Part shown: positions 3,755 to 20,269 of the stretch, piece after piece
Layout: each line of letters begins with the position of its first letter
Numbering within the stretch: position 1 is the stretch's first letter
From: a virus
Length of the DNA stretch: 23,581 nucleotides
Direction: 5' to 3' (one strand)
Virus record (IMG/VR): IMGVR_UViG_3300018009_000024
Coordinates: 1 to 23,581 of that record
Program-made: the position numbers and the translations under genes
The notes under the pieces: model-generated
Told to the model about the DNA's origin: nothing
Database searches by the model: none
The model's input: only the letters and a program-made list of their open reading frames with translations

Positions 3755-3954
3755 GCGTGAATGAACATCCTCGACGGATCAGCATCTCGCTGAGTTCGGA
3801 GCAGGTGGTGAAACTGCTCAACGCGCTGCGCGAGGACAAGCCGTTTGAGTGCTTCGGAGTCAATTACGTCATCGAGATACAGCGCGAGAAGTCGAATTGG
3901 ATTCAGAGCGACCTGGACGAGATCGGGGTTAGGAAAGGTAAGGCACATGGCTGA
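3751..3954 (+). CDS. Small early phage protein, unknown function
   Basis: 67-residue protein, family not recognised. The sequence (RRISISLSSEQVVKLLNALREDKPFECFGVNYVIEIQREKS) predicts strand-helix-strand, with no membrane segment or metal site. I chose the ATG at 3751 because it overlaps the preceding stop as ATGA, the pattern used throughout this operon; an in-frame upstream start at 3664 would overlap the coding part of the previous gene by 90 bases. The end overlaps the DUF2130 gene start by eight bases. Confidence 0.7.
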   Translation: MSVNEHPRRISISLSSEQVVKLLNALREDKPFECFGVNYVIEIQREKSNWIQSDLDEIGVRKGKAHG

Positions 3955-5110
3955 GTCCGAGCAGACCGTTGTGTGTCCGGGGTGCGGGAAGTCCATTCCG
4001 CTGACTAAGGCGCTGACCTCGAACATCGAGGCCACGCTGCGCCGGCAGTTTGAGGCGCAGGCCTCCGACCGCGAGCGCGCGTTGAAACGCGATTACGCGG
4101 AGCAGCTCCAGGAGGCCCAGCAAGAGGCTCGCGCGAAAGCAAGAGAAGGCATCAACGAGGAGATGGCCACGCTGCGCGATCAGCTCATGCAGAGAGACGA
4201 GCAGATCGCGGAGACGCGCCGCAAGGAGATGGACCTCATCCAGCGCGAGCGGTCCCTGACGGACCGTTTGGCCGAGGTTGACCTGGAGATCGCTCGCCGC
4301 CTGGACACCGAGCGGTCCTCGATCCGGGAAGAAGTCGCGCGGAAGATGGAAGACGAGCGCCAACTGAAGGACCTCGAAAAGGACAAGCAGCTTTCCGACC
4401 TGAAGATGCAGGTGGACGTCCTGAAGCGGAAGCTCGAGCAGGGTTCGCAGCAGACCCAGGGCGAAGCGGTCGAGCTTCAGCTCGAGGAGCTGCTCGCCGG
4501 CGCGTTCCCGTTTGACCAGATCGAGCCGGTCGGGAAGGGCATCAAGGGCGCCGATGTGCTCCAGCGTGTCAACACGCAGCAGGGGCAGTACTGCGGCATG
4601 ATCGCGTGGGAGTTCAAGAACACGCGGAACTGGACGGATGGGTGGATCGCCAAGCTCAAGGACGACCAGCGCGCGGCAAAGGCCGAGATCGGGGTTCTCG
4701 CCACGGCCGTCCTGCCGAAGGGCATCACGCACATCGGCCAGGTCGAGGGCGTTTGGGTGACGGACTTCGCGTCGCTGATCGGACTGGCCAGCGCGCTCCG
4801 GACGGGACTTGTCCAGGTGGCGCTTGGCCGGCTCGCCGCGGTGGGGAAGAACGACAAGATGGACATGCTCTACAACTACCTGACCGGGACGGAGTTCAAG
4901 CAGCGGGTCGAGGCGATGATCGAGTCCTTCATCCTCATGCGTGACGACCTCGAGCAGGAGAAGCGCGCGGCCGAGCGGGTATGGGCCAAACGCGAGAAGC
5001 AGATCCAGCGCGTGGTCGGCGGGGTGGCCGGAATGTACGGCGACATGCAGGGGATCGTCGGAGTCAGTCTGCCGAGGATCGAACGGCTCGAACTGCCGGC
5101 GCCTCAGTGA
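3947..5110 (+). CDS. DUF2130 family protein (PD-(D/E)XK nuclease-like)
   Basis: 387 residues matching the DUF2130 layout. A short CPGCG knuckle (C10, C13) is followed by a long coiled coil over about residues 25-165. The C-terminal domain has GIKGADVLQRV (Asp203) and GMIAWEFKNTRNW (Glu222-x-Lys224), which fits a PD-(D/E)XK nuclease core. The conserved KLKDDQRAAKAEIGVLATAVLPKGI and VWVTDFASLIGLA segments follow, then an ending with WAKREKQIQRVVGGVAGMYGDMQGI. From the family a DNA-acting nuclease or DNA-binding role is likely; the substrate is unknown. I chose ATG 3947, preceded by AGGAAAGG, over an earlier in-frame ATG at 3845 that lies inside the previous gene. It directly precedes a second PD-(D/E)XK protein, so the two may act together in end processing or host DNA breakdown. 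Confidence 0.9.
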   Translation: MAESEQTVVCPGCGKSIPLTKALTSNIEATLRRQFEAQASDRERALKRDYAEQLQEAQQEARAKAREGINEEMATLRDQLMQRDEQIAETRRKEMDLIQRERSLTDRLAEVDLEIARRLDTERSSIREEVARKMEDERQLKDLEKDKQLSDLKMQVDVLKRKLEQGSQQTQGEAVELQLEELLAGAFPFDQIEPVGKGIKGADVLQRVNTQQGQYCGMIAWEFKNTRNWTDGWIAKLKDDQRAAKAEIGVLATAVLPKGITHIGQVEGVWVTDFASLIGLASALRTGLVQVALGRLAAVGKNDKMDMLYNYLTGTEFKQRVEAMIESFILMRDDLEQEKRAAERVWAKREKQIQRVVGGVAGMYGDMQGIVGVSLPRIERLELPAPQ

Positions 5111-5124
5111 AAGGAAAGCGAGAG

Positions 5125-6090
5125 ATGAAAGTTCACAAACGCAAGCCGAAGGCGACCGCGCCCAAGGCTGTTGTGCTTCCGACGAAGCCCGGAATGTACG
5201 ACGGGATTCCCTTCACCGATTACTGCCTGCGCCTCAAGGGCGCGAACTCCACGATGCTGCGGCAGTTCCTCCACGAGACGCCCTCGCGCGTTTACTATCT
5301 CATGACGCACCCGGAGAAGGCGGAGGACTCCGTGGCGCTTCGCCTGGGACACGCCACGCATGCGGCGGTCCTGGAGCCAGAGCGGTTCGAGGAGGAATAC
5401 GCGAGGATTCCGAAGTTCGACCTGCGGACGAACGAGGGTAAAGCCGGCGCTTTGAAGTGGGCCGAGGACCATCCGACCCAGGCGCGGCTGCTTCCGGACA
5501 AATACGACGAGACGCTGGCTATGCGCGACGCCCTCCTGGCCCACCCTCTTGCCTCAAAGCTCCTCGGCGCGCCTGGCCGCACCGAAGTCACCGTCCTCTT
5601 CAGCATCCCGGTCTGGAAGAACCGGGAGACGGGTGAGATCGCCTGCCAGCCGGAATCGCCGGGCAAAGGATTCGTCCGCGCCGGCGAGGTCGCGTGCAAG
5701 GCCCGGATCGACAAGCTGATCTCGTGGGAGAACTGGTCAACGGTCCTGGACCTCAAGACGGACCGCGATGCCTCGTTGGCCGGCTTCGGGAAGGCCTGCG
5801 AGAAATTCTCCTACCACGCCCAAGCCGCGATGTACCTGGACGCGCTGGACATTCTCGCGCCGCGCAAGCGCCGGTTCATTCACGTCGTGGTGGACAAGCG
5901 ACCGCCGCACGACGTGGCGGTGCGCGAGCTGGACGAGCCGGAGCTGCGCGAGGGCCGGGCGGCGTATCGCTTTGCGCTCGCGACCTACATCCAGTGCAAG
6001 AAGTCCGGCGTGTGGCCGGCCTATTTCGACGGCATCGAGCCGCAGGAAATGCGCCGGAGCGCTTTCCGGTTCACCGATCCGACTCAGTAA
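5125..6090 (+). CDS. RecE/DUF3799-type PD-(D/E)XK exonuclease
   Basis: 321-residue nuclease of the group annotated as exodeoxyribonuclease VIII C-terminal or PDDEXK-like (DUF3799). Seen: YCLRLKGANSTMLRQFL and LRLGHATHAAVLEPERF (His76, His79) of the N-terminal part; ARIDKL (Asp196) followed by VLDLKTDRDAS (Asp209-x-Lys211), the metal and catalytic core; and YHAQAAMYLDAL (Gln233), the family's QxxxY-type helix. Family members resect double-stranded DNA ends in phage recombination, normally with an annealing partner such as RecT. ATG 5125 has AGGAAAG upstream and lies 14 bases after the DUF2130 stop. The RDF-like gene follows after ten bases. No obvious RecT is next to it. Confidence 0.9.
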   Translation: MKVHKRKPKATAPKAVVLPTKPGMYDGIPFTDYCLRLKGANSTMLRQFLHETPSRVYYLMTHPEKAEDSVALRLGHATHAAVLEPERFEEEYARIPKFDLRTNEGKAGALKWAEDHPTQARLLPDKYDETLAMRDALLAHPLASKLLGAPGRTEVTVLFSIPVWKNRETGEIACQPESPGKGFVRAGEVACKARIDKLISWENWSTVLDLKTDRDASLAGFGKACEKFSYHAQAAMYLDALDILAPRKRRFIHVVVDKRPPHDVAVRELDEPELREGRAAYRFALATYIQCKKSGVWPAYFDGIEPQEMRRSAFRFTDPTQ

Positions 6091-6100
6091 GGAGCCGACG

Positions 6101-7558
6101 ATGGGCCTTGAACGATTCTTCACCGCGAAGCTGACGCCGCTCGGCAAGATCAAGATCGGCGGCAAGGGCGAGGAAAAGGTCAGCGCCAAGGGCAAGACCT
6201 ACCGGCAGCCGCTGAAGTACGACTACTTCGTCGTCACGACGATGCAGAAAGACGCGGCCGGCAATTTCAAGCCGGACGTGAAGCTGATGAAGGAACTGAC
6301 CGAGGAGTACGGCGACGAGGACGGCAAGCTGCGGCAGATCCCGATCCGGCTGCTCTCGAATGATCCGGAGGTCGTCATGCAGACGGCCTTCGTCGCGTAC
6401 CAGGGCAAGGTCTGCATCGCGCGGAGCGATCGGCAGACGGTGACCTGGTTCAATGACCTGAAGACCGGCGCGCGCCTGGCCGAGCCGAAGGTCGAGCCGT
6501 GGGATGAGAAGCTGCGCGAGTTGAAGTCCCAGGAGGGCGGCGCATTCTTCAAGGAGCACAGCGTCTTCAATTGCGTGATCTCGGCGCACGAGGCGAAATG
6601 GGGCGGCGTCTATGAGTTCCGCACGACGGGCGAGATCAGCGGGCAGCAGCTCTACAGCGGGATGCTGGAGACGCTGCGACTGACCTATGGCGTGCTGATC
6701 GGGATGCCGCTCTGGATGGTGGTCGAGCCGAAACAGGTGACGCCGCAGGGCCGCGCGACGACGGTCTACGCGGTGAAGCTCGAGCTGCGCGCGCCCTCGA
6801 TGGAGGACATCGAACGGATGGCGCTGACGCGGATGCAGTACGCGCTGGCGCACAAGGACCAGATCCAGATCATCGAGACGAAGTACAAGGCGCTCATGGC
6901 GCCTCCAGGAACGGAATCGGCGAAGGACGCCGCCGATATCAATCTGGAATTCTCGCCGGAGACGGCGGACGCGAAGGTCGAGAAGCCGCCGGAAGGCGAG
7001 GACGAATTGCTGAAGCCGGCCGCTCCGCTGGCGCCGATGGATCGCCCTAAAGAGCGAGAAGCCGCCGGGGGAAGCTCCAAAGAAGGAGCGCGCACTACCC
7101 CGGCGGCCCCGGGAGACGATCTGCTCGAGGGCTCGAAGCCGCCGAAGGGCCCCAAACCGCCGCCGGCGATGATCGGAAAAGATCAGATCGAGGAACTCAA
7201 GGCGCTGGTCCCTCAGATCATGACAAAGGCCGACTGGCTGAAAGAGCTTGCGAAGCGCAAGGTCGAGCGCGTCAGTCAACTGACGGCCGCGGACGCGCTG
7301 ACGATGATCCTCGACTATCGGAAGCAGCGCGACGAGAAGAACAGGCGCGGGCCGAAGGAAGAGAAGTTCAGCCGCGATGCCGCGATCGGCGCGGTCAAAG
7401 AGGCCCTGGCGGACGATACGATCAGCACCCTCCGATTTGCCCGGGCCTGCGCTTCGCTGGAGATCAAGTACGACGACAAGCACGCGGACGCCTGGCAGGA
7501 AGTTGGGGACGGCAAGTTGAAGGAACTCGTTCACGAGCTGCTGCTGGATCAGCGGTAG
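6101..7558 (+). CDS. Gp3-like recombination directionality factor family protein
   Basis: 485 residues. The N-terminal 270 match, from memory, the family named Gp3-like recombination directionality factor or 'hydrolase or metal-binding protein': AKLTPLGKIKIGGKGEE, then YRQPLKYDYFVVTT, IPIRLLSNDPEVVMQTAFVAYQGKVC, and WMVVEPKQVTPQGRATTVYAVKLEL. In phiC31, Gp3 binds the serine integrase and switches it to excision; a serine recombinase is present here, so the role is plausible. The paired cysteines I associate with relatives (CxC-GDG and CPxC) are absent: the first region reads YQGKVCIARSDRQTV. A Pro/Ala/Glu-rich linker (about 285-365) leads to a small helical module (IEELKALVPQIM to LTAADALTMIL) typical of phage recombination proteins, then a charged tail. 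GGAG precedes ATG 6101. It could instead be an annealing-type partner of the RecE-like nuclease. Confidence 0.65.
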   Translation: MGLERFFTAKLTPLGKIKIGGKGEEKVSAKGKTYRQPLKYDYFVVTTMQKDAAGNFKPDVKLMKELTEEYGDEDGKLRQIPIRLLSNDPEVVMQTAFVAYQGKVCIARSDRQTVTWFNDLKTGARLAEPKVEPWDEKLRELKSQEGGAFFKEHSVFNCVISAHEAKWGGVYEFRTTGEISGQQLYSGMLETLRLTYGVLIGMPLWMVVEPKQVTPQGRATTVYAVKLELRAPSMEDIERMALTRMQYALAHKDQIQIIETKYKALMAPPGTESAKDAADINLEFSPETADAKVEKPPEGEDELLKPAAPLAPMDRPKEREAAGGSSKEGARTTPAAPGDDLLEGSKPPKGPKPPPAMIGKDQIEELKALVPQIMTKADWLKELAKRKVERVSQLTAADALTMILDYRKQRDEKNRRGPKEEKFSRDAAIGAVKEALADDTISTLRFARACASLEIKYDDKHADAWQEVGDGKLKELVHELLLDQR

Positions 7559-8038: not shown

Positions 8039-8458
8039 GTGCACTATAGAAATGGGCGCGAAGTGAGAAACGGCGACACGGTTGTCAGTCTTGGCTATGA
8101 CGGCGGGAAAATCGTGGCAGTCGGAATCCTTCACAACGCGACGACTGGCAATGACTACTGCAATGGCAGCATCGCGCCGATCAGCACCGGCGTCGCGGTC
8201 GCGAGCGTGTGCGATTGCCTGCACATGGACGATGTGGCCGAGATGCTGAAGGAAAAAGGTCTCGACAAGCGACCGAGCGGAAAAGAGAATTCGCGTGACG
8301 ACAACCTACGACTTCGCGGACGAGCGTGCCGGTCTGGAATACCTCCACAATGTCCGGTCGCGCGGCTTGGCAATTCCCCTCGAGGAGCTTCTGCGGGCCG
8401 GGGCGTGGGAGTTCTCGTCGTCAAGCGACCAGGGCGACAAGGCGACGACGCGGTATGA
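8039..8458 (+). CDS. Small phage protein with out-of-frame overlapping tail
   Basis: 139-codon frame starting at GTG with GGAGG five bases upstream. Residues 1-83 look like a real small protein (MHYRNGREVRNGDTVV, then VGILHNATTGNDYCNGSIAPI and DCLHMDDVAEMLKEKGL), a beta-rich type seen in phage genomes with no known role. From about residue 86 the product becomes Arg/Gly/Pro-rich low complexity. There the DNA is shared with the gene at 8295-8474 in another frame. Either the overlap is genuine and the tail is passive, or a frameshift removed the original stop. No membrane segment or catalytic motif is visible. Confidence 0.65.
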   Translation: MHYRNGREVRNGDTVVSLGYDGGKIVAVGILHNATTGNDYCNGSIAPISTGVAVASVCDCLHMDDVAEMLKEKGLDKRPSGKENSRDDNLRLRGRACRSGIPPQCPVARLGNSPRGASAGRGVGVLVVKRPGRQGDDAV

Positions 8459-8520: not shown

Positions 8521-9009
8521 ATGGCGAAGGCGAAGAAGCCGGCGAAGAAAGCGCCGGGCGGTCCGCCGAAGCTGGCGGCCGAGATCAAGGTGGAGGCCCG
8601 CGATTTCACGCATGCGGCCGCGAGCCTCGGATGCAAGTGCGCCCTGCTCAAGGGCTGCACGAAGGCAATCCTCAAGCGCATCGAGAAGGTGAAGGAGGTT
8701 CTCGATGCGAACATCGCCAAGGGCGGACTGGAGTCTCCGCGCGCCGGCATGCTGTTCGGGACCCTGGAGCAGTCGCGCCAGGAATCCCAGAAGGCGGAAC
8801 TCGAGCGGATTGACACGGCGGTCAGCCTCGCTAACTTCGTGCTCGAGAGCGTCGGCGCGGCGGACCTGAAGGCGTTCCGCGCGGGCTGCCGCAAGGTCTC
8901 CGAGGGCGTTGTGAAGAAGGCGGATGGCCGCGAGCCGGCGAAGGCGGCTGAGCCGGATGGCAAGAGCCAGGCGGCCGGCGACAGCCAGAGAGCGCAGGCG
9001 GCAGGATAG
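8521..9009 (+). CDS. Phage protein of unknown function with Lys-rich start
   Basis: 162 residues, no family recognised. The first 20 residues are Lys/Ala/Pro-rich (AKAKKPAKKAPGGPPK), like a nucleic-acid-binding tail. Residues 25-130 are mainly helical with three cysteines in LGCKCALLKGCTKAI (38, 40, 46), and residues 130-162 are a disordered Ala/Gly/Gln tail. A consensus AGGAGG lies upstream of the ATG. Its TAG stop is seven bases before the tmRNA 5' end, and no promoter is visible in its GC-rich 3' part, so the tmRNA is probably made from the same transcript. Confidence 0.75.
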   Translation: MAKAKKPAKKAPGGPPKLAAEIKVEARDFTHAAASLGCKCALLKGCTKAILKRIEKVKEVLDANIAKGGLESPRAGMLFGTLEQSRQESQKAELERIDTAVSLANFVLESVGAADLKAFRAGCRKVSEGVVKKADGREPAKAAEPDGKSQAAGDSQRAQAAG

Positions 9010-9014
9010 TGAGC

Positions 9015-9881
9015 ATGGGCCTGAAAGGATTCGACGGAGTGAATGAGGTCGGATGCTGCGCGCCGGGGACGGCCGCTCGGCCCCGTCAACAATGCGGCCA
9101 CAAGACTAAGTGCTGCCGAATATCGGCAAGCGGCCTAAACGGTCGCCCTGAACCCGGCGAGGAAGCCCGCGTAGCCGGCAGTAGGGACCAGACGCAGGCG
9201 ACGGCCCGGAGAGACGGGCTGGCTTGCCGGTTGAAAGCTGCTCCGAAGGAATTCCGGCTGGCCGGGCGTCGTGGCCAGCCACGCGCAAAAGGGCTGAAAT
9301 CCCCTGGAGCGAAACCGGCTGGTGGAGGCAAGGCTTGCCCGACGAGCCTCAATCATCGGGACACGCGCGTAGACGCACCGGCTGAAGCACGACCGGACGG
9401 GAGTTCGATTCTCCCCAGGTCCACTCATCTTAGCATCCTGGCCTTTGACCTGGCCTCTGTCTGCGGATGGGCCTCTCTCAAGGAAGGCCGTCTCAGTTCG
9501 GGCGCCTGGGAGAATCCGGCGCGGTACGTGGACTCTCCCGGGCGCTTCTTTACCTGTTTCAGGACGTGGCTCGCGGACATGAAGCAGTGGCACGAACCGC
9601 AGCTCGTGGCCTACGAGTTCACCCCGCGCGGCGCGAGCACGAATGCGATGCTGATCCATTTCGGGCTTGTGACCAGGCTGGAGGAGTGGGCGTACCGAAT
9701 GGAGGCGCGCACGGCGTTCATCTATCCGAGCCAACTGAAGAAGCTGGTGACCGGACGCGGCGACGCGGAGAAGGAAGAGGTGCGCGATGTCATGCGGAAG
9801 CGATGGAAGATTCCGAAGCTGACGAGCCTGGACGAGAGTGACGCGGTTGCGGTCTTGACCTGGGCGCTGAGGAAAGCATGA
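9015..9881 (+). CDS. RuvC-like Holliday junction resolvase; start lies across the tmRNA
   Basis: The conserved protein begins at about 9420: STHLSILAFDLASVCGWA with the first catalytic Asp (codon 9447), VAYEFTPRGAS with the Glu, and DESDAVAVLTWAL with the C-terminal Asp. This is the RNase H-fold core of phage RuvC-like crossover junction endonucleases, about 154 residues. No ATG, GTG or TTG is in frame between 9420 and the catalytic core. The frame is open leftward through the whole tmRNA to ATG 9015, which has AGGA eight bases upstream. The given span is this open frame; residues 2-135 would be translated tmRNA and are unlikely to be a functional domain. An ATT at 9408, preceded by GGAG in the T-stem, is an alternative start. 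The end overlaps the next ATG (ATGA). Resolvase function is well supported; the start is not. Confidence 0.8.
   Translation: MGLKGFDGVNEVGCCAPGTAARPRQQCGHKTKCCRISASGLNGRPEPGEEARVAGSRDQTQATARRDGLACRLKAAPKEFRLAGRRGQPRAKGLKSPGAKPAGGGKACPTSLNHRDTRVDAPAEARPDGSSILPRSTHLSILAFDLASVCGWASLKEGRLSSGAWENPARYVDSPGRFFTCFRTWLADMKQWHEPQLVAYEFTPRGASTNAMLIHFGLVTRLEEWAYRMEARTAFIYPSQLKKLVTGRGDAEKEEVRDVMRKRWKIPKLTSLDESDAVAVLTWALRKA
9017..9423 (+). ncRNA. ssrA: tmRNA (transfer-messenger RNA), phage-borne, one-piece
   Basis: A complete tmRNA that rescues stalled ribosomes by acting as alanyl-tRNA and then as a short message. The acceptor stem GGGCCTG (9017-9023) pairs with CAGGTCC (9416-9422) over seven bases; the third pair is G-U, the alanyl-tRNA synthetase identity element. 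The discriminator A is at 9423. The nearly invariant GGATTCGACGG is at 9027-9037. The T-arm is GGGAG-TTCGATT-CTCCC (9399-9415). Helix 2 forms from GGTCG (9047-9051) with CGACC (9390-9394) and continues as TGC/GCA across a two-base bulge. A tag reading frame ends at TAA 9136-9138 inside a stem-loop (GCGGCC-TAAAC-GGTCGC). GC-rich repeats in 9190-9345 fit the pseudoknot domain. CCA is not encoded (CTC follows). No own promoter or terminator is seen. Length is about 407, slightly above the usual 350-400. Confidence 0.95.
9085..9138 (+). other. tmRNA tag-peptide reading frame
   Basis: The message part of the tmRNA. Read from AAC 9088 it gives NNAATRLSAAEYRQAA followed by TAA; one codon earlier (GTC) would add Val. 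The ending QAA resembles the small hydrophobic ends (LAA, VAA) that proteases recognise in ssrA tags. The resume codon is uncertain, placed by analogy with the AGTC-resume context in other tmRNAs. The frame differs from that of the RuvC-like gene downstream. Confidence 0.7.
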
Positions 9882-10777
9882 ACTCGAACGGCCGAAGGCT
9901 GCCGTGCGCGTTTCCGTACATCGGCGGGAAGTGGAGGCTGGCGCCAAGGATCATCGCCCTGATGCCGCCGCATGAAGTCTACGTGGAAGTGTTCGGCGGG
10001 TCCGGCGCGGTGCTTTTCGCCAAGGAGCGCTCGAAGGTCGAGGTCCTCAACGACTGCGATGGCGAGATCGTGAACTTCTTCCGCGTCCTGCAGGATCCGG
10101 GCAAGACTGACCGGTTGATGCAGCGGCTCTTTGTGACGCCCTATTCCCGGAAGGTCTATGCGGAGATGTGCGAGCGGCCGCTGCCGAAGGACGATGTGCT
10201 GCGCGCCTGGGTGTTGTGGGCGCGTGCGCGGATGTGCTTTGGCGGATACCGGCCGGCGGAGAACGGGTTTCGTTTCGCGGGCAACACGCGCGGTCGCTGG
10301 CGCCGATCGCTCGGCTCGCGGCACCAGGGCGGCGGCGATGCGGCGACGCTCCACAACAAGATTGACGAGCTGGACCGGTTCACAGAACGCCTGCGCGGCG
10401 TCTACATCGAGGACAAGGATTTCCCCTACATCCTCGACTGGTGGGATTCGCCCAGGACGGTCTTCTACCTCGATCCGCCGTACTTCGGGACCGAAGGGTA
10501 CTACGACGGCGGGATGTTTCCGGAGTGGCGGCATTACGAACTGGCGGATCACCTGGCGCGCATCAAGGGCAAGGCCGTCGTCAGCTACTACCCGCACCCG
10601 AAGCTGGCGGAGCTGTACCCGGAAGACCGCTGGCATCGCGCGACCTTCCGCGTGCGGAAGAACCAGCAGAAGACGGTTCCCGGCACGGAGGCGAAGTACG
10701 AGACGGAGATGCTGCTGATGAACTACGAACCGACGGACGGGGCCCGGGCCCCGGTTGAGAAAGGCGCAGGCACATGA
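9878..10777 (+). CDS. Dam-type DNA N6-adenine methyltransferase (D12 class)
   Basis: 299 residues of the D12 class. PYIGGKWRLAPRI (13-25) is the family start motif. VEVFGGSGAVLF (36-47) is the S-adenosylmethionine-binding motif. The catalytic motif is DPPY at 199-202 (in FYLDPPYFG). The enzyme methylates adenine N6 in a short site, possibly GATC as in Dam, but specificity cannot be read from sequence. The region between (FGGYRPAENGFRFAGNTRGRW) fits the target recognition domain. It overlaps the resolvase stop by four bases and the cytosine methylase start by four. In a phage it probably protects DNA from host restriction or times replication and packaging. Confidence 0.93.
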   Translation: MNSNGRRLPCAFPYIGGKWRLAPRIIALMPPHEVYVEVFGGSGAVLFAKERSKVEVLNDCDGEIVNFFRVLQDPGKTDRLMQRLFVTPYSRKVYAEMCERPLPKDDVLRAWVLWARARMCFGGYRPAENGFRFAGNTRGRWRRSLGSRHQGGGDAATLHNKIDELDRFTERLRGVYIEDKDFPYILDWWDSPRTVFYLDPPYFGTEGYYDGGMFPEWRHYELADHLARIKGKAVVSYYPHPKLAELYPEDRWHRATFRVRKNQQKTVPGTEAKYETEMLLMNYEPTDGARAPVEKGAGT

Positions 10778-12162: not shown

Positions 12163-13890
12163 ATGCTGCACGTCGGAAAAACCGCTGACGGGCGCGCGTT
12201 CACGCTTCCCTTGGACATCGTTACGCAGACCGTGGCGATCCTCGCCCGCCGCGGCGCGGGGAAGTCGTACACGGCCTCGGTCGTGGCCGAGGAGCTGCTG
12301 GCCGCGAAGCAGCAGGTGGTCGTCCTTGACCCGACCGGCGGATGGTACGGACTGCGGTCCTCGGCGGATGGCGCGAGCGACGGATTCCCGGTGCTGGTGA
12401 TCGGCGGAGATCATGGCGATATCCCGCTCGAGGAGGCGGCGGGCGAAATGCTCGCCGCGGCCATCGTGGAGAACCGCTTCTCGGCCGTGGTGGACGTATC
12501 GCTCTTCCGAAAGGGACAGATGCGCCGGTTCGTGACGCCGTTCCTGGAGTCGCTCTACCGCCTGAACCGCGAGCCGGTCCACCTGTTCATTGACGAGGCG
12601 GACGACGTTTGCCCGCAGCGGCCTTTCGGCGACGAGGCGCAGATGGTGGGCGCCGTGGAGGATGTCGTCAAGCGCGGGCGGAAGAAGGGCATCGGCTGCA
12701 CGCTGATCACGCAGCGGCCGGCGGACCTGGCGAAGCAGGTACTCACCCAGGTCGAGATGCTCGTGGCGATGCGGCTCTCGCACCCGCTCGACATGAAAGC
12801 GGTCATGGAGTGGATCAACGTCCACGCGGATCCCGACGAGGCGCAGGGGATGATGGAAAGCCTGCCCGGGCTGCCGACCGGCACGGCGTGGTTCTGGTCG
12901 CCGCTGATGGATCTGTTTTCGCGCGTCCAGGTGCGACAGCGCAAGACGTTCGACAGCGGGGCGACGCCGAAGCCGGGGCAGGCGGTCCGCGAGCCGAAGC
13001 GGATCACGAAGGTTGATGTTGCAGCCTTGGGCGAGAAGATCAAGGGTATGGCGGAGAAGGCGAAGGCAAACGATCCGAACGTCCTGAAGCGGCGCGTTGC
13101 GGAACTGGAGAGGCAGCTCAAGACGCTGCCAGCAGCGGCGCCAGCGAAAGTCGAGCGGGTTGAAGTGCCGGTCTGGACGACGAAGGACCGTGCCATGCTA
13201 CAGGATTGCAAGAACGCGATTCAAGAAGCGACGCCCCTGCTCATCGCGCTAGAACGCGCAATAACCCTCGCGGACTGCAAAGTGGCTATGCGCGGCGTTG
13301 CGATCTTTCCGCGTGCGAAATCGCACCCGCCGGCGGCGCCGCCTGCTGCCCGGGTCGCCGATCTCCGGCCATCCCGAACACCGGCGCAGCCTCATTTCAG
13401 CGGCCCCGCCGGCGACTGCGGCAAGCTCGGGCGCGCGCAGCGCATGATCCTGAGCGTCCTCGCGCAGCACGGCGCGAAGCGGAAGGTCCAAGTGGCCGTC
13501 ATGGCCGGCTATTCGGTCGGCGGCGGCGCATTCTGCAATGCCATCGGGTCGCTGGTCTCCGGCGGACTCGTCGTCCGCAACGGCGAGATGCTCGAAGCGA
13601 CGGCCGAGGGCGTCGCGGCATTGGGATCCGCGCCGGCACCGCTTCCGACCGGACACGACCTGATCGCGTACTGGATGGCGCAGCTCGGGAAGGCGGAGCG
13701 GGAAGTGCTCCAGGTCCTCACCTGCCGCTATCCGCAGCAGCTTACGAAGCAGGACATCGCCGAGGCGACGGAGTCGCACTACGCGCCGGACGGCGGCGCT
13801 TTCGGGAATGCGCTCGGCCGGCTTCGGACGCTGGAACTGATCGTCGGGCGCGGGATGATCTCGGCGAGTCCGCATTTGATGGAGGGATGA
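12163..13890 (+). CDS. HerA/FtsK-like ATPase with tandem C-terminal winged helices
   Basis: 575 residues. Walker A is ARRGAGKSYT (Lys34), and VVVLDPTGGWYGL (52-64) is the HerA/DUF87-type 'LDP.G' step. Walker B is VHLFIDEADD (Asp144, Glu145), and CTLITQRPADLAKQVLTQ is the sensor/motif C region. A probable coiled coil (about 305-330) and a Pro/Ala-rich linker (about 395-425) follow. The C-terminal 150 residues hold two similar winged-helix units: GGGAFCNAIGSLVSGGLV and DGGAFGNALGRLRTLELI mark the same position in each. HerA relatives are DNA-translocating hexamers that often work with a nuclease. Here the resolvase and two upstream PD-(D/E)XK nucleases are candidate partners, or it may serve DNA transport. 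GGAG precedes the ATG. Confidence 0.85.
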   Translation: MLHVGKTADGRAFTLPLDIVTQTVAILARRGAGKSYTASVVAEELLAAKQQVVVLDPTGGWYGLRSSADGASDGFPVLVIGGDHGDIPLEEAAGEMLAAAIVENRFSAVVDVSLFRKGQMRRFVTPFLESLYRLNREPVHLFIDEADDVCPQRPFGDEAQMVGAVEDVVKRGRKKGIGCTLITQRPADLAKQVLTQVEMLVAMRLSHPLDMKAVMEWINVHADPDEAQGMMESLPGLPTGTAWFWSPLMDLFSRVQVRQRKTFDSGATPKPGQAVREPKRITKVDVAALGEKIKGMAEKAKANDPNVLKRRVAELERQLKTLPAAAPAKVERVEVPVWTTKDRAMLQDCKNAIQEATPLLIALERAITLADCKVAMRGVAIFPRAKSHPPAAPPAARVADLRPSRTPAQPHFSGPAGDCGKLGRAQRMILSVLAQHGAKRKVQVAVMAGYSVGGGAFCNAIGSLVSGGLVVRNGEMLEATAEGVAALGSAPAPLPTGHDLIAYWMAQLGKAEREVLQVLTCRYPQQLTKQDIAEATESHYAPDGGAFGNALGRLRTLELIVGRGMISASPHLMEG

Positions 13891-14332: not shown

Positions 14333-14637
14333 CCGCGAAGCCGTGGCGGATGAAGCGTTTTTCCTCGCGCGAGATTCTCCAGGGGATCGAGTATGCCAAG
14401 TCCGGCGGTCAGGCCCTGCACGTCTGGAAGGGCTGCTGGCCGAATCCGAAACCTCGCTGCTTCAAGGACGGCGAGCCGTGGGGACATCTGCTTGATCAGG
14501 ATGCCGGCCGTTTGCTTCTCACGGCCCTTCATCTCGGCGTCAAGATGGTCAAGATATCCAATCCCGGAAAGCAGACGCAGCACGTTGACCTCTGCGGCAG
14601 GCCGCTGGAACGGGCGATGAAGGAGTGCAAACCATGA
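14329..14637 (+). CDS. Small phage protein, possibly DUF4031-like
   Basis: 102 residues. The part GEPWGHLLDQDAGRLLLTALHLGVKMVKISNPGKQTQHVDLCGRPLERAMK resembles the DUF4031 layout (H-L...D..EL...A..LG...F....HYDL) only loosely. The front contains WKGCWPNPKPRCFKDGE. No catalytic motif can be named. ATG 14329 overlaps the ASCH stop as ATGA, which I prefer over an in-frame start at 14290 inside the ASCH gene. Its stop overlaps the following ATG in the same way. Confidence 0.7.
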   Translation: MTAKPWRMKRFSSREILQGIEYAKSGGQALHVWKGCWPNPKPRCFKDGEPWGHLLDQDAGRLLLTALHLGVKMVKISNPGKQTQHVDLCGRPLERAMKECKP

Positions 14638-14993
14638 CCGAACCGAACATTGATCCTCGCGCTGCGGTACTGGAATACCTGACGCGCTGGAAGCATCTCG
14701 GCCCGCACACTAAAGGCGACATCGCCCAGGTGACCGGCCTCTCGACGCGCGAGGTCGAGGAGGCGATCCACGAGCTGCGCCACTCCGGCGAGCCGATTGT
14801 CGCGGGCGATAAAGGCTACCTCTGGACTGAAGACCCGCTAAAGCTCGATGAGTGTTTGGCCGCTCTGAAGCATCGCGCGGGGGAGATTCACGGGACGATT
14901 TCCGATCTTGAGGCGACCCGCGACCGGCTGCTGCGGAGTCGGGCGATTGAGCCGGGCGGACAGGCGCGGCTTTTTGCGGAGGCGAAGGCGTGA
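14634..14993 (+). CDS. Winged-helix-like small protein
   Basis: 119 residues. Residues 10-65 look like a winged helix-turn-helix (VLEYLTRWKHLGPHTKGDIA, then LSTREVEEAIHELRHSGEPIVAGDKGYLW with the wing). Residues 75-105 form a charged helix (LAALKHRAGEIHGTISDLEATRDRLLRS). Similar small proteins occur in phage early regions, and DNA binding is a reasonable guess. AAGGAG precedes ATG 14634, which overlaps the previous stop as ATGA. The end overlaps the radical SAM GTG start as GTGA. Confidence 0.75.
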   Translation: MTEPNIDPRAAVLEYLTRWKHLGPHTKGDIAQVTGLSTREVEEAIHELRHSGEPIVAGDKGYLWTEDPLKLDECLAALKHRAGEIHGTISDLEATRDRLLRSRAIEPGGQARLFAEAKA

Positions 14994-15838
14994 GGATCGC
15001 CCGCGTTTTTCCGCGATGGACGACAGCCACGCCGACCGACGATCTGGCCTTCGTCGGGTATCCCGACCTCTACACGCCGGACGTGGACCGCGTTTACATC
15101 AGCGTCGCGTTCACCTGGGATATGGAGGAGGCGGAAAAGCTGGCGTCGGCTTGGGAGAAGCGCGCGCCGGTAACGCTCGGCGGTCCGGCGCTCGGCCGGC
15201 GGTCCGAGGGATTTACGCCGGGGCAGTTCATCAAGCGCGGGTACACGATCACTTCGCGCGGCTGCCCCAACCGCTGCTGGTTCTGCGAGGCGTGGAAGCG
15301 CGAAGGGCCGGTCCGCGAACTGCCGATCATGGACGGATTCAACGTGCTGGACGACAACCTGCTCGCGTGCTCCCGGCGGCACATCGAGGACGTCTTTGCG
15401 ATGCTCGGCCGGCAGAAGCAACGCGCACGGCTGACCGGCGGGTTGGAGGCGCGACGGCTCGAGGACTGGCACGTCGAGCTGCTTGCGCGGCGGATGCCGG
15501 ATGTCGCGTTCCTGGCCTATGACACTGCGGACGACTGGGAGCCCCTTGTCGAGGCCGCTCGGAAGTTGAGGGCTGCCGGTTTGATTTCGGGCAAGCACCG
15601 CATTCGTGCCTACGTGCTCTGCGGTTGGCCGAAGAACGAGCGTTGCGGGAGATCGGCGGACACGATTCGCGCGGCGGACGAGCGCTGCCGGCGTGTCGCG
15701 CGGCTGGGGATCATGCCGGCGGCGATGCTATACGACAACGGCGTCCATGTGGATAAGAGTGACTGGCACGACTGGCGGTTCGCCTGGTCGGACCCGGCGG
15801 CGTGCGGGAAGCGCATGAAAGAGGAGGGGAAGGCATGA
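14990..15838 (+). CDS. Radical SAM family protein
   Basis: 282 residues. The [4Fe-4S] cluster motif is CPNRCWFC (Cys92, Cys96, Cys99), the CX3CX2C signature of radical SAM enzymes. The N-terminal 70 residues (VDRVYISVAFTWDMEEAEKLASAWEKRAPVTLGGPA) look like a shortened cobalamin-binding-type Rossmann domain, as in B12-dependent radical SAM proteins. FNVLDDNLLACSRRHIEDV follows the cluster, as usual in the barrel. The protein is short for the superfamily, so the barrel is partial or compact. The reaction is unknown. The start is GTG, overlapping the previous stop, with GGAGG upstream. It overlaps the DUF5131 gene by four bases; the pairing of two cysteine-motif proteins suggests a shared pathway such as base or tRNA modification. 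Confidence 0.85.
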   Translation: MRIARVFPRWTTATPTDDLAFVGYPDLYTPDVDRVYISVAFTWDMEEAEKLASAWEKRAPVTLGGPALGRRSEGFTPGQFIKRGYTITSRGCPNRCWFCEAWKREGPVRELPIMDGFNVLDDNLLACSRRHIEDVFAMLGRQKQRARLTGGLEARRLEDWHVELLARRMPDVAFLAYDTADDWEPLVEAARKLRAAGLISGKHRIRAYVLCGWPKNERCGRSADTIRAADERCRRVARLGIMPAAMLYDNGVHVDKSDWHDWRFAWSDPAACGKRMKEEGKA

Positions 15839-16599
15839 GCGGCAAGACAAAGATCGAATGGACTGAGGCGGCTTGGAATCCCATCACCGGCTGCTCTCCG
15901 GTCAGCGAGGGCTGCGAACATTGCTACGCGCAGCGGATGGCGCAGCGCCTCGCCGGCAGGTACGGCTACCCGAAAGCATATCCCTTCGCAGTGACGGTCC
16001 ACGACGACCGCATGGTAGAACCACTAAGTTGGAAAAAGCCTCGCCGGATATTCGTGTGCTCAATGGCCGACCTGATGCACGACAACGTCCCGGACATGGC
16101 CATACGCGACGTAATCGGTACGATCAAGGCGGCACCGCAGCACACGTTCCAGATCCTCACCAAGCGCCCGCGACGGCTGGAGGAGTGGGTGTGGCCGTCA
16201 AACGTCTGGCTCGGTGTGACCGCGGAGAATCAGCAGAGGGCTGACGAGCGCATACCGATACTGCTCACGCATCAGCATGCGTCGGTCCTCTTTGTTTCTA
16301 TCGAGCCGATGCTCGGGCCGATCACGCTGAAGCGCTACATCGGCGATCCGATGCCGCGGCCTTGGCCGGTCCTCGTTCACGCAGATGGTGGGACGCCTCC
16401 GCGCGGTCTGGACTGGGTAATCTGCGGCGCAGAGACCGGCCCCGGCGCGCGCCCGATGCACAACGTATGGGCGGACGATCTCTACAGGCAATGCAAAAAG
16501 GCCAGCGTCCCCTTTTTCTTCAAGAAGCAAACAGAGGGGCTTGGCGTTCTGGAGAAGGTGCTGGCGTGCCGAGAGATTCCTGGCGTGGAGTCGCAGTGA
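15835..16599 (+). CDS. Phage Gp37/Gp68 family protein (DUF5131)
   Basis: 254 residues with the family start KIEWTEAAWNPITGCSPVSEGCEHCYAQRMAQRL. Cys20, Cys27 and Cys30 (CX6CX2C) form the three-cysteine motif, thought to bind an iron-sulfur cluster in a radical SAM-like fold. Further family marks are RRIFVCSMADLMHD, FQILTKRPRRL, NVWLGVTAENQ, LFVSIEPMLGPI, WVICGAETGPGARPM, and FFFKK near the end. The family is common in phages and mobile elements; its reaction is not established as far as I know. ATG 15835 overlaps the radical SAM stop as ATGA. The nearest downstream gene is 94 bases away, the largest gap in this part of the operon. Confidence 0.92.
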   Translation: MSGKTKIEWTEAAWNPITGCSPVSEGCEHCYAQRMAQRLAGRYGYPKAYPFAVTVHDDRMVEPLSWKKPRRIFVCSMADLMHDNVPDMAIRDVIGTIKAAPQHTFQILTKRPRRLEEWVWPSNVWLGVTAENQQRADERIPILLTHQHASVLFVSIEPMLGPITLKRYIGDPMPRPWPVLVHADGGTPPRGLDWVICGAETGPGARPMHNVWADDLYRQCKKASVPFFFKKQTEGLGVLEKVLACREIPGVESQ

Positions 16600-17503: not shown

Positions 17504-18114
17504 GGCGACGCTGCAAAAAGCGACAATCTGTAGGTACTCCTGGGCGAGACTTCGGGCTTGAAGGTGTGCGTGGGCGGCGGCAAGATTCACAGACTTTGTT
17601 TGCCACAAAACGGTCGCTGAACGTACAGAAAATCGCGGCGCTCCTGGTGAATGGAAAAACGTCGTCAGCGATCATGTCGTGGGCCGTCAGTGACCGCGGC
17701 CTCGGTCTGTCGGAAGCGCAGGCCGGTCGTCTCATGCGTCAGGCGAAGAAACAGATTTCGCGCGACTCAAAATGGAGCCAGGAGGAAGAGCTCGGTCTGG
17801 CAGTCAGTCGTCTCCGCATGCTCTACGCGAAGGCGTTGTCAGCCGGTGACACCGCTGGCGCTTTTTCGATTCAGCGAGAGCTGAATTCACTGACGGGTCT
17901 TCGCGGGCGCGATGGCGATGGCAGCGACGGAAAACCGCCGCCCCACGACGATGGCGCAAGCCGAGAGTTGGCCGCGGCTCGAGCGCATCTTGCCGCCCTG
18001 AACCTCGGAGGCCCGGACGTTCCGGTGAGTGAGTTGGCGCGGTTGGCCGTCCAACGGATCGTGGAGTTGATGACCAGTGCGAATGAAGAAGGCAAGAAGT
18101 CCGGCAAACTATGA
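17500..18114 (+). CDS. Probable terminase small subunit
   Basis: 204 residues. Assignment is mainly from position directly before the large terminase and from a helical DNA-binding-like domain at about 40-85 (NVQKIAALLVNGKTSSAIMSWAV, then GLSEAQAGRLMRQAKKQI), followed by helices at 90-135 (LAVSRLRMLYAKALSAGDTAGAFSIQRELNSLTGL) suited to oligomerisation. A Gly/Asp/Pro-rich linker and a last helix (VSELARLAVQRIVELMTS) complete it. Small subunits recognise the packaging site and form rings on the DNA. ATG 17500 overlaps the replication gene stop; the end overlaps the large subunit start by 32 bases. Confidence 0.65.
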   Translation: MRRRCKKRQSVGTPGRDFGLEGVRGRRQDSQTLFATKRSLNVQKIAALLVNGKTSSAIMSWAVSDRGLGLSEAQAGRLMRQAKKQISRDSKWSQEEELGLAVSRLRMLYAKALSAGDTAGAFSIQRELNSLTGLRGRDGDGSDGKPPPHDDGASRELAAARAHLAALNLGGPDVPVSELARLAVQRIVELMTSANEEGKKSGKL

Positions 18115-20269
18115 GCGTCACAGGGCGGACGCCCGGGCGCGCATGGCCGCCAAGTCGGAGGCGGGCCGCGATATCGGCGAGATGCCGGCGGTCGTAAATC
18201 CGATGCGCAAAGCGCGCTGCGGCGCTTTGCTCCAGGCGTTCATCGAGAGCTACCTCCTGAAGATGTTCACGGTCCGCGGAGACCACTGGCCCTGGTCGGC
18301 AACACACCTGGAGGTCATGCGTCGCATCGAGGCCGTCGTGCGCTACGGCGATATGTTCGGCGTGGCCATGCCGCGCGGCGGCGGCAAGACCTCTCTCATC
18401 AAGGCGGGAACGTTGTGGGCGAGCCTCTTCGGCTTCAGGCGATGGGTCTGCGTTCTCGCCGCCACGGCGCCGAAGTCGGGGGCGATCATTCAGGATTTGC
18501 AGACCATCGTGGAAACCAATCCACTGCTCGCGGCGGATTTCCCGGAGGTCTGTTATCCCGTTCGCAAGCTGGAACGCATCGCTGGCCGGCAGCGCGGGCA
18601 GACATTCAGGCGGGAGCCGACGCGCATGGCCTGGAGCGTGAATGAAATCGTCCTCCCGAACATTCCCGGAAGCCGGTGCGCCGGCAGCATGGTCACGGCG
18701 ACCGGCCTCGAGGGTTCCGGCATCCGCGGCCAGGTGCGCGTGCTGGCCGATGGCACGCAGCTCCGGCCCGACCTGGTGTTCATAGACGATCCGCAGACGG
18801 ACGAGAGCGCGCATTCGGCGTTTCAGACCGACGATCGGCTGAAGTTGCTGGGCGGCGCGGTCCTCGAAATGGGGCCGCCTGGCGTCCCGCTCGCCGCTCT
18901 GATGGCCGTGACGGTGATCGAGAACGGCGATGTCGGCGATACGGTCCTGAAGGACCCGCGATGGAACGGAATCCGTTCGCCGATGCTCGTCAAGTTTCCC
19001 GTCCACATGAGCGCGACGCCCGCCGACATTCCTCACGCGGACCACTGGGACCGCTATGCCGACCTGCTGCGAAGCGGGCGAACTGATGACGCGACGGAGT
19101 TCTATGCGGCGCATCGGTGCCTTCCGGAGTGCGAGGGGATCCTCGACCGGCCGCGCCCTTGCCTGCCCTGCCCGATTCGCGCCGACTGCATGGACGCGGA
19201 CGCCATGGTCTCCTGGCAGCAGCGGAAATATCCCGCCGACCTTTCGCCGGTTCAGCACGCCATGGACCGGCACATTCGCAACCCGATCCTCTTCGCCGCC
19301 GAGATGCAGCAACAGCCGATCTCGGCACAAATGGCCGGCGCAAGGATCACGCCGGCGCAGGTGATCCAGCGGGTCAGCGGCCTTCCGATGTGCCACGTGC
19401 CTGCGGATGCGACGGTCATCACCGCCGGAGTCGACGTCCACGACGAGCTTCTCTACTGGGTCGTGTGCGCCTGGGAAGACGACTTCACCGGCCAGGTCAT
19501 TCAGTACGGCACGCTCCCCGAGCAGCCGGTGCGCTGGTTCCTGCAGGCCAGTCCGCCACGCCCGCTCTCGCGCGAGTTCCCCGGCCAGGACAAGGACGGC
19601 GTGATTCAGTCCGGCCTCGAGCGCCTGTGCGGCGTCATGCTCAAGCATGAGTTCGAGAAACACGCCGGCGGATCCGTGGCTTCGATGTCCATCGAGCAGA
19701 TGCTCGTGGACAGCGGCTACAAACCGACGCTCGTCTACAACGTGCGCCGGAAGCTCGCCAGCCCGATCATGCAGGCCTCGAAGGGCATGGCCCTGCGCGC
19801 AACGAACAAGCCGATCGCCTCCTTCCAGCGTAAGCGCGGATGGAAGTTCGGCGACGACTGGTACGTCCCCAGCGTCCGCGGCACGCGCGAGTACCCGCAC
19901 GTGTGCATTGACACCAACGCCTGGAAGAGCTTCGTCCATCGCGCATTGTCCGTCGCTCCGGGCACGCGCGGCGCCTTGACGCTCTACGGGACGCCGGTGA
20001 CTGCCGGCGACCATGAAGCGTTCGCGGAACAGGTCGCCGCCTCCGAGTACTTCACCGAGGTCTTCGCTCACGGCCGGGTCGTCAACGAGTACAAGCAGAT
20101 GCCGCATCGGCCCGACAACCACTGGTGGGACTGCCTGGTCCTGTGCGCGGTCGGCGCCTCGATGCGCGGCTGCAAGCCGCCGGTCCAGGCGAAAGCGGCT
20201 CAGCGGTCATCCGGCGGTCCGGCGAAGCGCCAGGTGAAGAGCCTTGCAGAAATGGCAGGAGCAACATGA
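18083..20269 (+). CDS. Terminase large subunit (GpA-like)
   Basis: 728 residues. ATPase: Walker A-like MPRGGGKTSLIK (96-107) and Walker B LVFIDDPQTDE (231-241). Nuclease: VITAGVDVHDE (Asp451) opens the RNase H-like domain, DSGYKP carries a second acidic residue, and RPDNHWWDC near the end carries the last, as in the GpA family. ILFAAEMQQQP before the nuclease is typical of large terminases. The enzyme cuts concatemers and pumps DNA into the prohead through the portal. An insertion near 346-370 has five cysteines (CLPEC, then CLPCPIRADC), a possible zinc site between the two domains. ATG 18083 and GTG 18077 are both possible starts; neither has a strong ribosome binding site, so coupling to the small subunit gene is likely. 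The stop overlaps the next ATG. Confidence 0.93.
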   Translation: MKKARSPANYERHRADARARMAAKSEAGRDIGEMPAVVNPMRKARCGALLQAFIESYLLKMFTVRGDHWPWSATHLEVMRRIEAVVRYGDMFGVAMPRGGGKTSLIKAGTLWASLFGFRRWVCVLAATAPKSGAIIQDLQTIVETNPLLAADFPEVCYPVRKLERIAGRQRGQTFRREPTRMAWSVNEIVLPNIPGSRCAGSMVTATGLEGSGIRGQVRVLADGTQLRPDLVFIDDPQTDESAHSAFQTDDRLKLLGGAVLEMGPPGVPLAALMAVTVIENGDVGDTVLKDPRWNGIRSPMLVKFPVHMSATPADIPHADHWDRYADLLRSGRTDDATEFYAAHRCLPECEGILDRPRPCLPCPIRADCMDADAMVSWQQRKYPADLSPVQHAMDRHIRNPILFAAEMQQQPISAQMAGARITPAQVIQRVSGLPMCHVPADATVITAGVDVHDELLYWVVCAWEDDFTGQVIQYGTLPEQPVRWFLQASPPRPLSREFPGQDKDGVIQSGLERLCGVMLKHEFEKHAGGSVASMSIEQMLVDSGYKPTLVYNVRRKLASPIMQASKGMALRATNKPIASFQRKRGWKFGDDWYVPSVRGTREYPHVCIDTNAWKSFVHRALSVAPGTRGALTLYGTPVTAGDHEAFAEQVAASEYFTEVFAHGRVVNEYKQMPHRPDNHWWDCLVLCAVGASMRGCKPPVQAKAAQRSSGGPAKRQVKSLAEMAGAT

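Follow-up and report, generated by a model that had tools for sequence, protein, structure and literature searches.

The 23,581-base virus record analyzed here in full (hereafter, the window) carries a one-piece tmRNA gene (ssrA) positioned inside the open reading frame of a RuvC-like Holliday junction resolvase, an arrangement that we tentatively attribute to in-frame insertion of the tmRNA gene into the start of the resolvase gene, giving a transcript with two fates, one of which would be translation of a fusion protein; this overall reading is possible, falling somewhat short of probable. The frame is free of stops from 9009 to 9881, and the resulting 290-codon open frame spans the whole tmRNA, as the first-pass annotation had claimed. 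Judged from sequence comparisons, the tmRNA and the resolvase both belong to known families, while the position of the tmRNA inside the frame of an enzyme appears to be new within the literature searched: at the level of titles and listings, no tmRNA inside a reading frame was found described in open-access publications. The arrangement is known from one example on one metagenome contig. The features of the region are as follows:

8521..9009, plus strand: upstream gene, 162 amino acids, with its stop TAG at 9007-9009 (open reading frame list)
9009..9011, plus strand: GTG, probable original start of the resolvase and first start of the open frame (joined flanks read V/M-S-I-L-A-F-D-L-A)
9012..9016, plus strand: left copy of the 5-base direct repeat AGCAT, immediately before the first tmRNA base (sequence)
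9015..9017, plus strand: ATG, the G of which is tmRNA base 1 (sequence)
9017..9423, plus strand: predicted one-piece tmRNA (ssrA), 407 nt, CCA not encoded (Rfam RF00023, ARAGORN)
9064..9099, plus strand: pseudoknot PK1 (exact complementarity of both stems)
9112..9138, plus strand: tag reading frame AAEYRQAA-stop, behind PK1 and directly preceded by TAAGT (ARAGORN)
9399..9415, plus strand: T arm GGGAG-TTCGATT-CTCCC, holding ATT 9408, a codon of the resolvase frame that has GGGAG ahead of it (sequence)
9429..9881, plus strand: RuvC-like Holliday junction resolvase body (PF02075, 1.6e-05; phrog_159, 1.8e-14)
9432..9436, plus strand: AGCAT, right copy, in frame with the left copy (sequence)
9878..10777, plus strand: D12-class adenine methyltransferase, next gene of the operon (PF02086, 3.6e-19)

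Pfam and PHROGs identify the window as part of a tailed phage, with matches to a gpA-type terminase, a portal protein, two DNA methyltransferases, and a Gp3-like recombination directionality factor, as well as a HerA-like ATPase, DUF2130, and PDDEXK proteins. The gene upstream of the tmRNA gave no match in either database; its codon usage is phage-like, and its TAG stop overlaps GTG 9009 as TAGTG. Several neighboring gene borders in the window show ATGA overlaps. No sigma-70-like promoter was found near the tmRNA, the sole one detected being at 8262. Elsewhere in the window, two packaging-like ATPases are encoded at 12163-13890 and 18077-20269; one, HerA-like, matches PHROG 2666 (terminase large subunit), and the other is the gpA-type terminase. 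At 14990-16599, a radical-SAM match that is weak and under the Pfam cut-off, but supported by phrog_9298, adjoins a strong DUF5131 protein, and the pair may possibly form a modification module. DUF2130, the DUF3799 PDDEXK protein, and the Gp3-like directionality factor lie at 3845-7558 in long overlapping listed frames with uncertain start sites.

On covariance and base-pairing evidence, positions 9017-9423 are a complete one-piece tmRNA with predicted tagging and charging function. The RF00023 match (9017-9426) is full-length (model positions 1-374) and scores 66.8 bits against a gathering threshold of 47. In the acceptor stem, GGGCCTG (9017-9023) pairs with CAGGTCC (9416-9422) in seven pairs, the third of which is G-U; the G3-U70 pair is the alanine identity pair of the tmRNA acceptor. 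The discriminator base is A9423, followed by CTC at 9424-9426 in place of CCA. An alternative 5' end at 8862 proposed by ARAGORN was rejected, since both Rfam and the acceptor pairing give 9017. The two PK1 stems are CGGGG 9064-9068 with CCCCG 9081-9085 and GGCCGC 9071-9076 with GCGGCC 9094-9099. The predicted fold is somewhat better than that of shuffled sequences (z -1.97; none of 100 shuffles equaled it). The tag has its stop and ends in two alanines. Its last three residues are QAA, whereas 28 Planctomycetota tmRNA tags end in LAA, MAA, or FAA; a QAA end may possibly be less favored by host proteases.

In the resolvase frame, the only ATG, GTG, or TTG codons ahead of the catalytic Asp are those at 9009, 9015, 9039, and 9231, which agrees with the earlier statement that none lies between the tmRNA 3' end and that residue. 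The ordinary start nearest to the resolvase is TTG 9231, 66 codons upstream, in the middle of the tmRNA. Among 80 viral relatives, an ATG, GTG, or TTG lies within 34 codons of the conserved start in all 80, within 25 codons in 78, and within 10 codons in 57, these counts referring to the nearest codon by position, which is not a proven start. An ordinary start close to strand 1, usual but not defining for the RuvC-like family, is absent here. The first-pass annotation had chosen ATG 9015 as the start; its G is indeed the first base of the tmRNA, but GTG 9009, GTG 9039, and TTG 9231 are further candidate starts in frame. The sole Shine-Dalgarno sequence available to GTG 9009 is poorly spaced, a point against the insertion reading.

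Across the tmRNA, the three frames contain 5, 0, and 7 stops (12 in all), the zero belonging to the resolvase frame, which is the sole frame without obligatory stops because each of the other two has a stop that is part of a functional tmRNA element (the TAA preceding the resume codon in one, the stop of the tag in the other). The probability that the resolvase frame is open through the tmRNA by chance is 3.2% under base shuffling and 4.9% under a Markov model, close to the few percent estimated earlier; that any of the three frames is open is 13.9%. When Markov sequences were restricted to those with 10-14 stops in all, the resolvase frame was open in 81 of 7,152 (1.1%). For comparison, 54 Planctomycetota tmRNA loci exceeded the cut-off, of which ARAGORN placed 50, and an open frame of any kind occurred in one of these 50 (in an earlier subset of 30 loci, 0 of the 28 placed); the phage tmRNAs of Kampe and Nappy have stops in all frames. 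The open frame is unlikely by chance (~1-5%), not extreme. No coding signature was found in the resolvase frame of the tmRNA stretch (-0.20 bits per codon, versus -0.14 and -0.26 in the other frames with stops set aside), and the idea of a coding-like composition there was rejected.

It is quite unlikely, in our estimate, that the resolvase is instead translated from a non-ATG start at the tmRNA 3' end, most plausibly ATT 9408 or else ATC 9435 or CTG 9438, which would leave the open frame as a chance event of 1-5%. All three codons are in frame, ATT 9408 lies merely seven codons ahead of codon 9429 and thus within the range of the relatives, and the GGGAG of the T stem could serve as a Shine-Dalgarno sequence. 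However, the resemblance of GGGAG-TTCGATT to a start site weighs little, as any T arm normally looks like this; the spacing is just 4 bases, and GGGAG is base-paired in the folded tmRNA. A start at CTG 9438 would remove part of strand 1.

The resolvase body matches RuvC structures by profile, and D10, E66, and D141 (numbered from 9420), which we take from RuvC to be the catalytic acids, do not vary among the 38 sequences aligned. Phage codon usage scores +0.36 bits per codon in the resolvase frame and -0.47 and -0.29 in the other frames. An AlphaFold2 model built on the entire open frame (9009-9878) predicts the RuvC domain with confidence from residue ~141 onward, with strand 1 at residues 143-148, and mostly pLDDT <60 for the tmRNA-coded residues 1-140. 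The top Foldseek match of the model is Deinococcus RuvC (7xhj, TM 0.84 by target length), and its domain compares with E. coli RuvC (1hjr) at TM 0.75 by target length. Judged from its fold, catalytic acids, codon bias, and the ATGA by which its stop overlaps the methyltransferase start, the enzyme looks intact. These data also bear on a second explanation, that the resolvase was inactivated or silenced by the insertion, so that another resolvase or a host enzyme is used and the frame is a recent relic. The lack of a nearby ordinary start would fit such a loss, as would the divergence of the protein (25-36% identity to relatives) and the absence of some near-invariant residues, e.g., the glycine at position 12; yet the body contains no stop or frameshift, retains its acids and codon usage, and is still coupled to the methyltransferase, and we give this explanation the same low weight as a non-ATG start.

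A local assembly or base-calling error masking an ordinary start or stop at the tmRNA/resolvase junction is improbable: the site is covered by a single metagenome contig, a second contig of the same virus beginning only at window position 14348, beyond the site, and running ~4.2 kb past the right end of the window, but the two contigs agree at 9,233 of 9,234 overlapping bases, and 9336-9444 contains no ATG, GTG, or TTG in any frame, so a one-base shift there would not on its own put an existing ordinary start in frame.

For an in-frame insertion, the ends of the insert are best placed by the AGCAT repeat. Its two copies lie 420 bases (140 codons) apart, and joining them gives GTG AGC ATC CTG GCC TTT GAC, that is, M-S-I-L-A-F-D, comparable to the resolvase N-termini MSILTLD in Wolbachia phages and MKILALD in ctRVW222. 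In the alignment, the initial Met of the Wolbachia-type and ctRVW222 proteins falls on codon 9429, and the AcaML1 Met on ~9423. Both positions coincide with the tmRNA end or lie slightly beyond it, so the proposal that the conserved resolvase begins inside the tmRNA at 9420 does not hold. Counting against this placement, a repeat of at least 5 bases adjoins 3.8% of the other window positions (1.7% in frame), and shuffling the 23 bases that follow the tmRNA produces AGCAT 0.6% of the time (0.2% in frame); all statistical tests on the insertion reading are post hoc. A longer imperfect repeat is also present (9010-9022 and 9462-9474), with out-of-frame spacing, which again weakens the case.

An AGCAT/AGCAT junction with a 420-base insert is the likely one on sequence grounds, and the ancestral resolvase start was probably GTG 9009, in the TAGTG stop-start overlap, as suggested by the repeat together with the MSIL start of the homologs. 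With this junction, ATG 9015 is explained as AT joined to tmRNA base 1, and we rejected it as the ancestral start, regarding it as a junction by-product. The first-pass annotation had instead removed 402 bases (9018-9419); this likewise preserves the frame but is less supported. It would leave a few residues behind ATG that lack a counterpart in Wolbachia-type homologs, and no repeat beyond one shared G was found to mark the junction. Its view that the tmRNA entered directly behind ATG, with the gene resuming at TCC ACT CAT, is probably wrong, as AGCAT and MSIL favor GTG 9009, whereas its broader suggestion of insertion into an existing resolvase gene, in frame at the 5' end, fits best with an intact enzyme that has no start of its own, an open frame through the tmRNA, and a place in an operon.

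The sequence itself shows the anatomy of the locus, the open frame, the absence of a closer ordinary start, and intact features in both resolvase and tmRNA, whereas the insertion history, co-transcription, processing, and fusion translation outlined here are inferred. A phage-borne one-piece tmRNA gene would have inserted in frame within the third codon of a RuvC-like resolvase gene whose GTG 9009 start was coupled to the upstream gene through TAGTG, and the event would have used or created the 5-base repeat. The region would be co-transcribed with its neighbors. RNase P is expected, from the mature 5' end, to cut between 9016 and 9017, inside ATG 9015, and the CCA-less 3' end suits a cut after A9423, as in tRNA processing. 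Cleavage at 9016/9017 and 3' processing after 9423 would free the tmRNA and leave a resolvase message without a start; either cut would separate the resolvase body from its start, so that a fusion could arise from uncut RNA only. Mutually exclusive tmRNA and resolvase products, as proposed earlier, would be a logical consequence of the RNase P cut.

On an uncut transcript, ribosomes starting at GTG 9009 (or ATG 9015) would read through the tmRNA and produce a resolvase of 288-290 residues carrying a disordered, RNA-encoded tail of ~140 residues. We regard such fusion translation as possible, if somewhat less than probable; the tight tmRNA fold and the expected fast action of RNase P count against it. 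A fully dual-purpose transcript, with codons 3 to ~138 of the enzyme supplied by a working tmRNA and with RNA maturation and enzyme synthesis competing for one molecule, seems unlikely. A ribosome starting from GTG 9009 on the cut leader would stall or run off after two codons and become a substrate for the freed tmRNA; cut-leader stalling and the released tmRNA could possibly constitute a self-regulating loop.

Neither an occupied nor an empty insertion site was found in any relative from the viral-contig searches and the terminase and resolvase profile searches, which counts against the insertion reading. Single queries of viral contigs with the resolvase, the upstream protein, and the Gp3-like protein gave no confirmed close relatives. 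Besides the second contig of this virus, the terminase search returned 14 others, at 31-40% identity, and the terminase profile returned 80 loci (79 new) at 37-43%; in the 82 terminase loci compared, neither a resolvase nor a tmRNA (ARAGORN) was found. In 32 longer records searched whole, no tmRNA exceeded the cut-off, with one sub-threshold match of 18 positions; the resolvase was not found in these records either, many of which are fragments, so that this empty answer carries no weight as absence. The resolvase profile returned 80 loci at 27-36% identity, and ARAGORN detected no tmRNA in their fetched flanks (0/80). Exact patterns of the tmRNA 5' end and the junction had no match in viral and genome collections, a result of little weight given that 19-32 exact bases were required. 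On the cellular side, only distant terminase relatives were found, in a Phycisphaerales MAG and in an NPL-UPA2 MAG. No closer cellular link turned up than the Phycisphaerales relative (38% identity), on a 151 kb contig that is perhaps a prophage. Of 294 Planctomycetota genomes, 6 gave matches to the window tmRNA, in short pieces only.

Resolvases from Wolbachia phage WO, from AcaML1, and from related phages share 27-30% identity with the window protein over nearly the whole length, including the catalytic residues and the N-terminal strand. Unlike the window gene, full-length members of this type have an ordinary start close to strand 1, and no tmRNA was found in six such records searched.

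According to one survey, tmRNA occurs in 402 of 18,146 phages (PMC9004378). Like the window, the tailed phages Nappy (Bixzunavirus), Kampe (a Gordonia phage), and the methylophage Melnitz have complete tmRNAs in their genomes; their positions differ, that of Kampe lying ~295 bases before the next gene and that of Nappy among tRNAs. In Melnitz, the tmRNA is two-piece, and the gene that immediately follows it belongs to the same operon; this tmRNA is not described as lying inside a gene (PMC9004378). In Streptococcus pyogenes, ssrA and speA form a bicistronic transcript, which the authors suggest may be cut by tmRNA maturation (PMC9951164). The likeness, a precedent for a processed tmRNA-mRNA transcript, lies in a protein gene downstream of tmRNA on the same transcript; however, speA is a separate gene ~1 kb downstream, reached by terminator read-through, whereas the window tmRNA lies inside the reading frame (PMC9951164). 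Cluster K1 mycobacteriophages integrate at the 3' end of host ssrA, with an attP consisting of a 24-bp 3' core beside the integrase (PMC3203893). Phage DNA is joined to tmRNA in both cases, but the window has a whole tmRNA amid phage genes. No integrase was recognized among the 20 window open reading frames searched with Pfam and PHROGs, and with phage-type genes on both sides of the tmRNA, a prophage-end or attachment-site explanation was rejected.

If the fusion is made, a structured and processed RNA gene would double as the coding sequence of a conserved enzyme, and the arrangement would let the phage switch, in a simple way, from an RNA that rescues ribosomes to a protein that processes DNA or back. 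Without the fusion, the locus still shows how a phage tmRNA can come to lie at the start of a gene that looks intact, and it raises the question of how the resolvase gene gets started.
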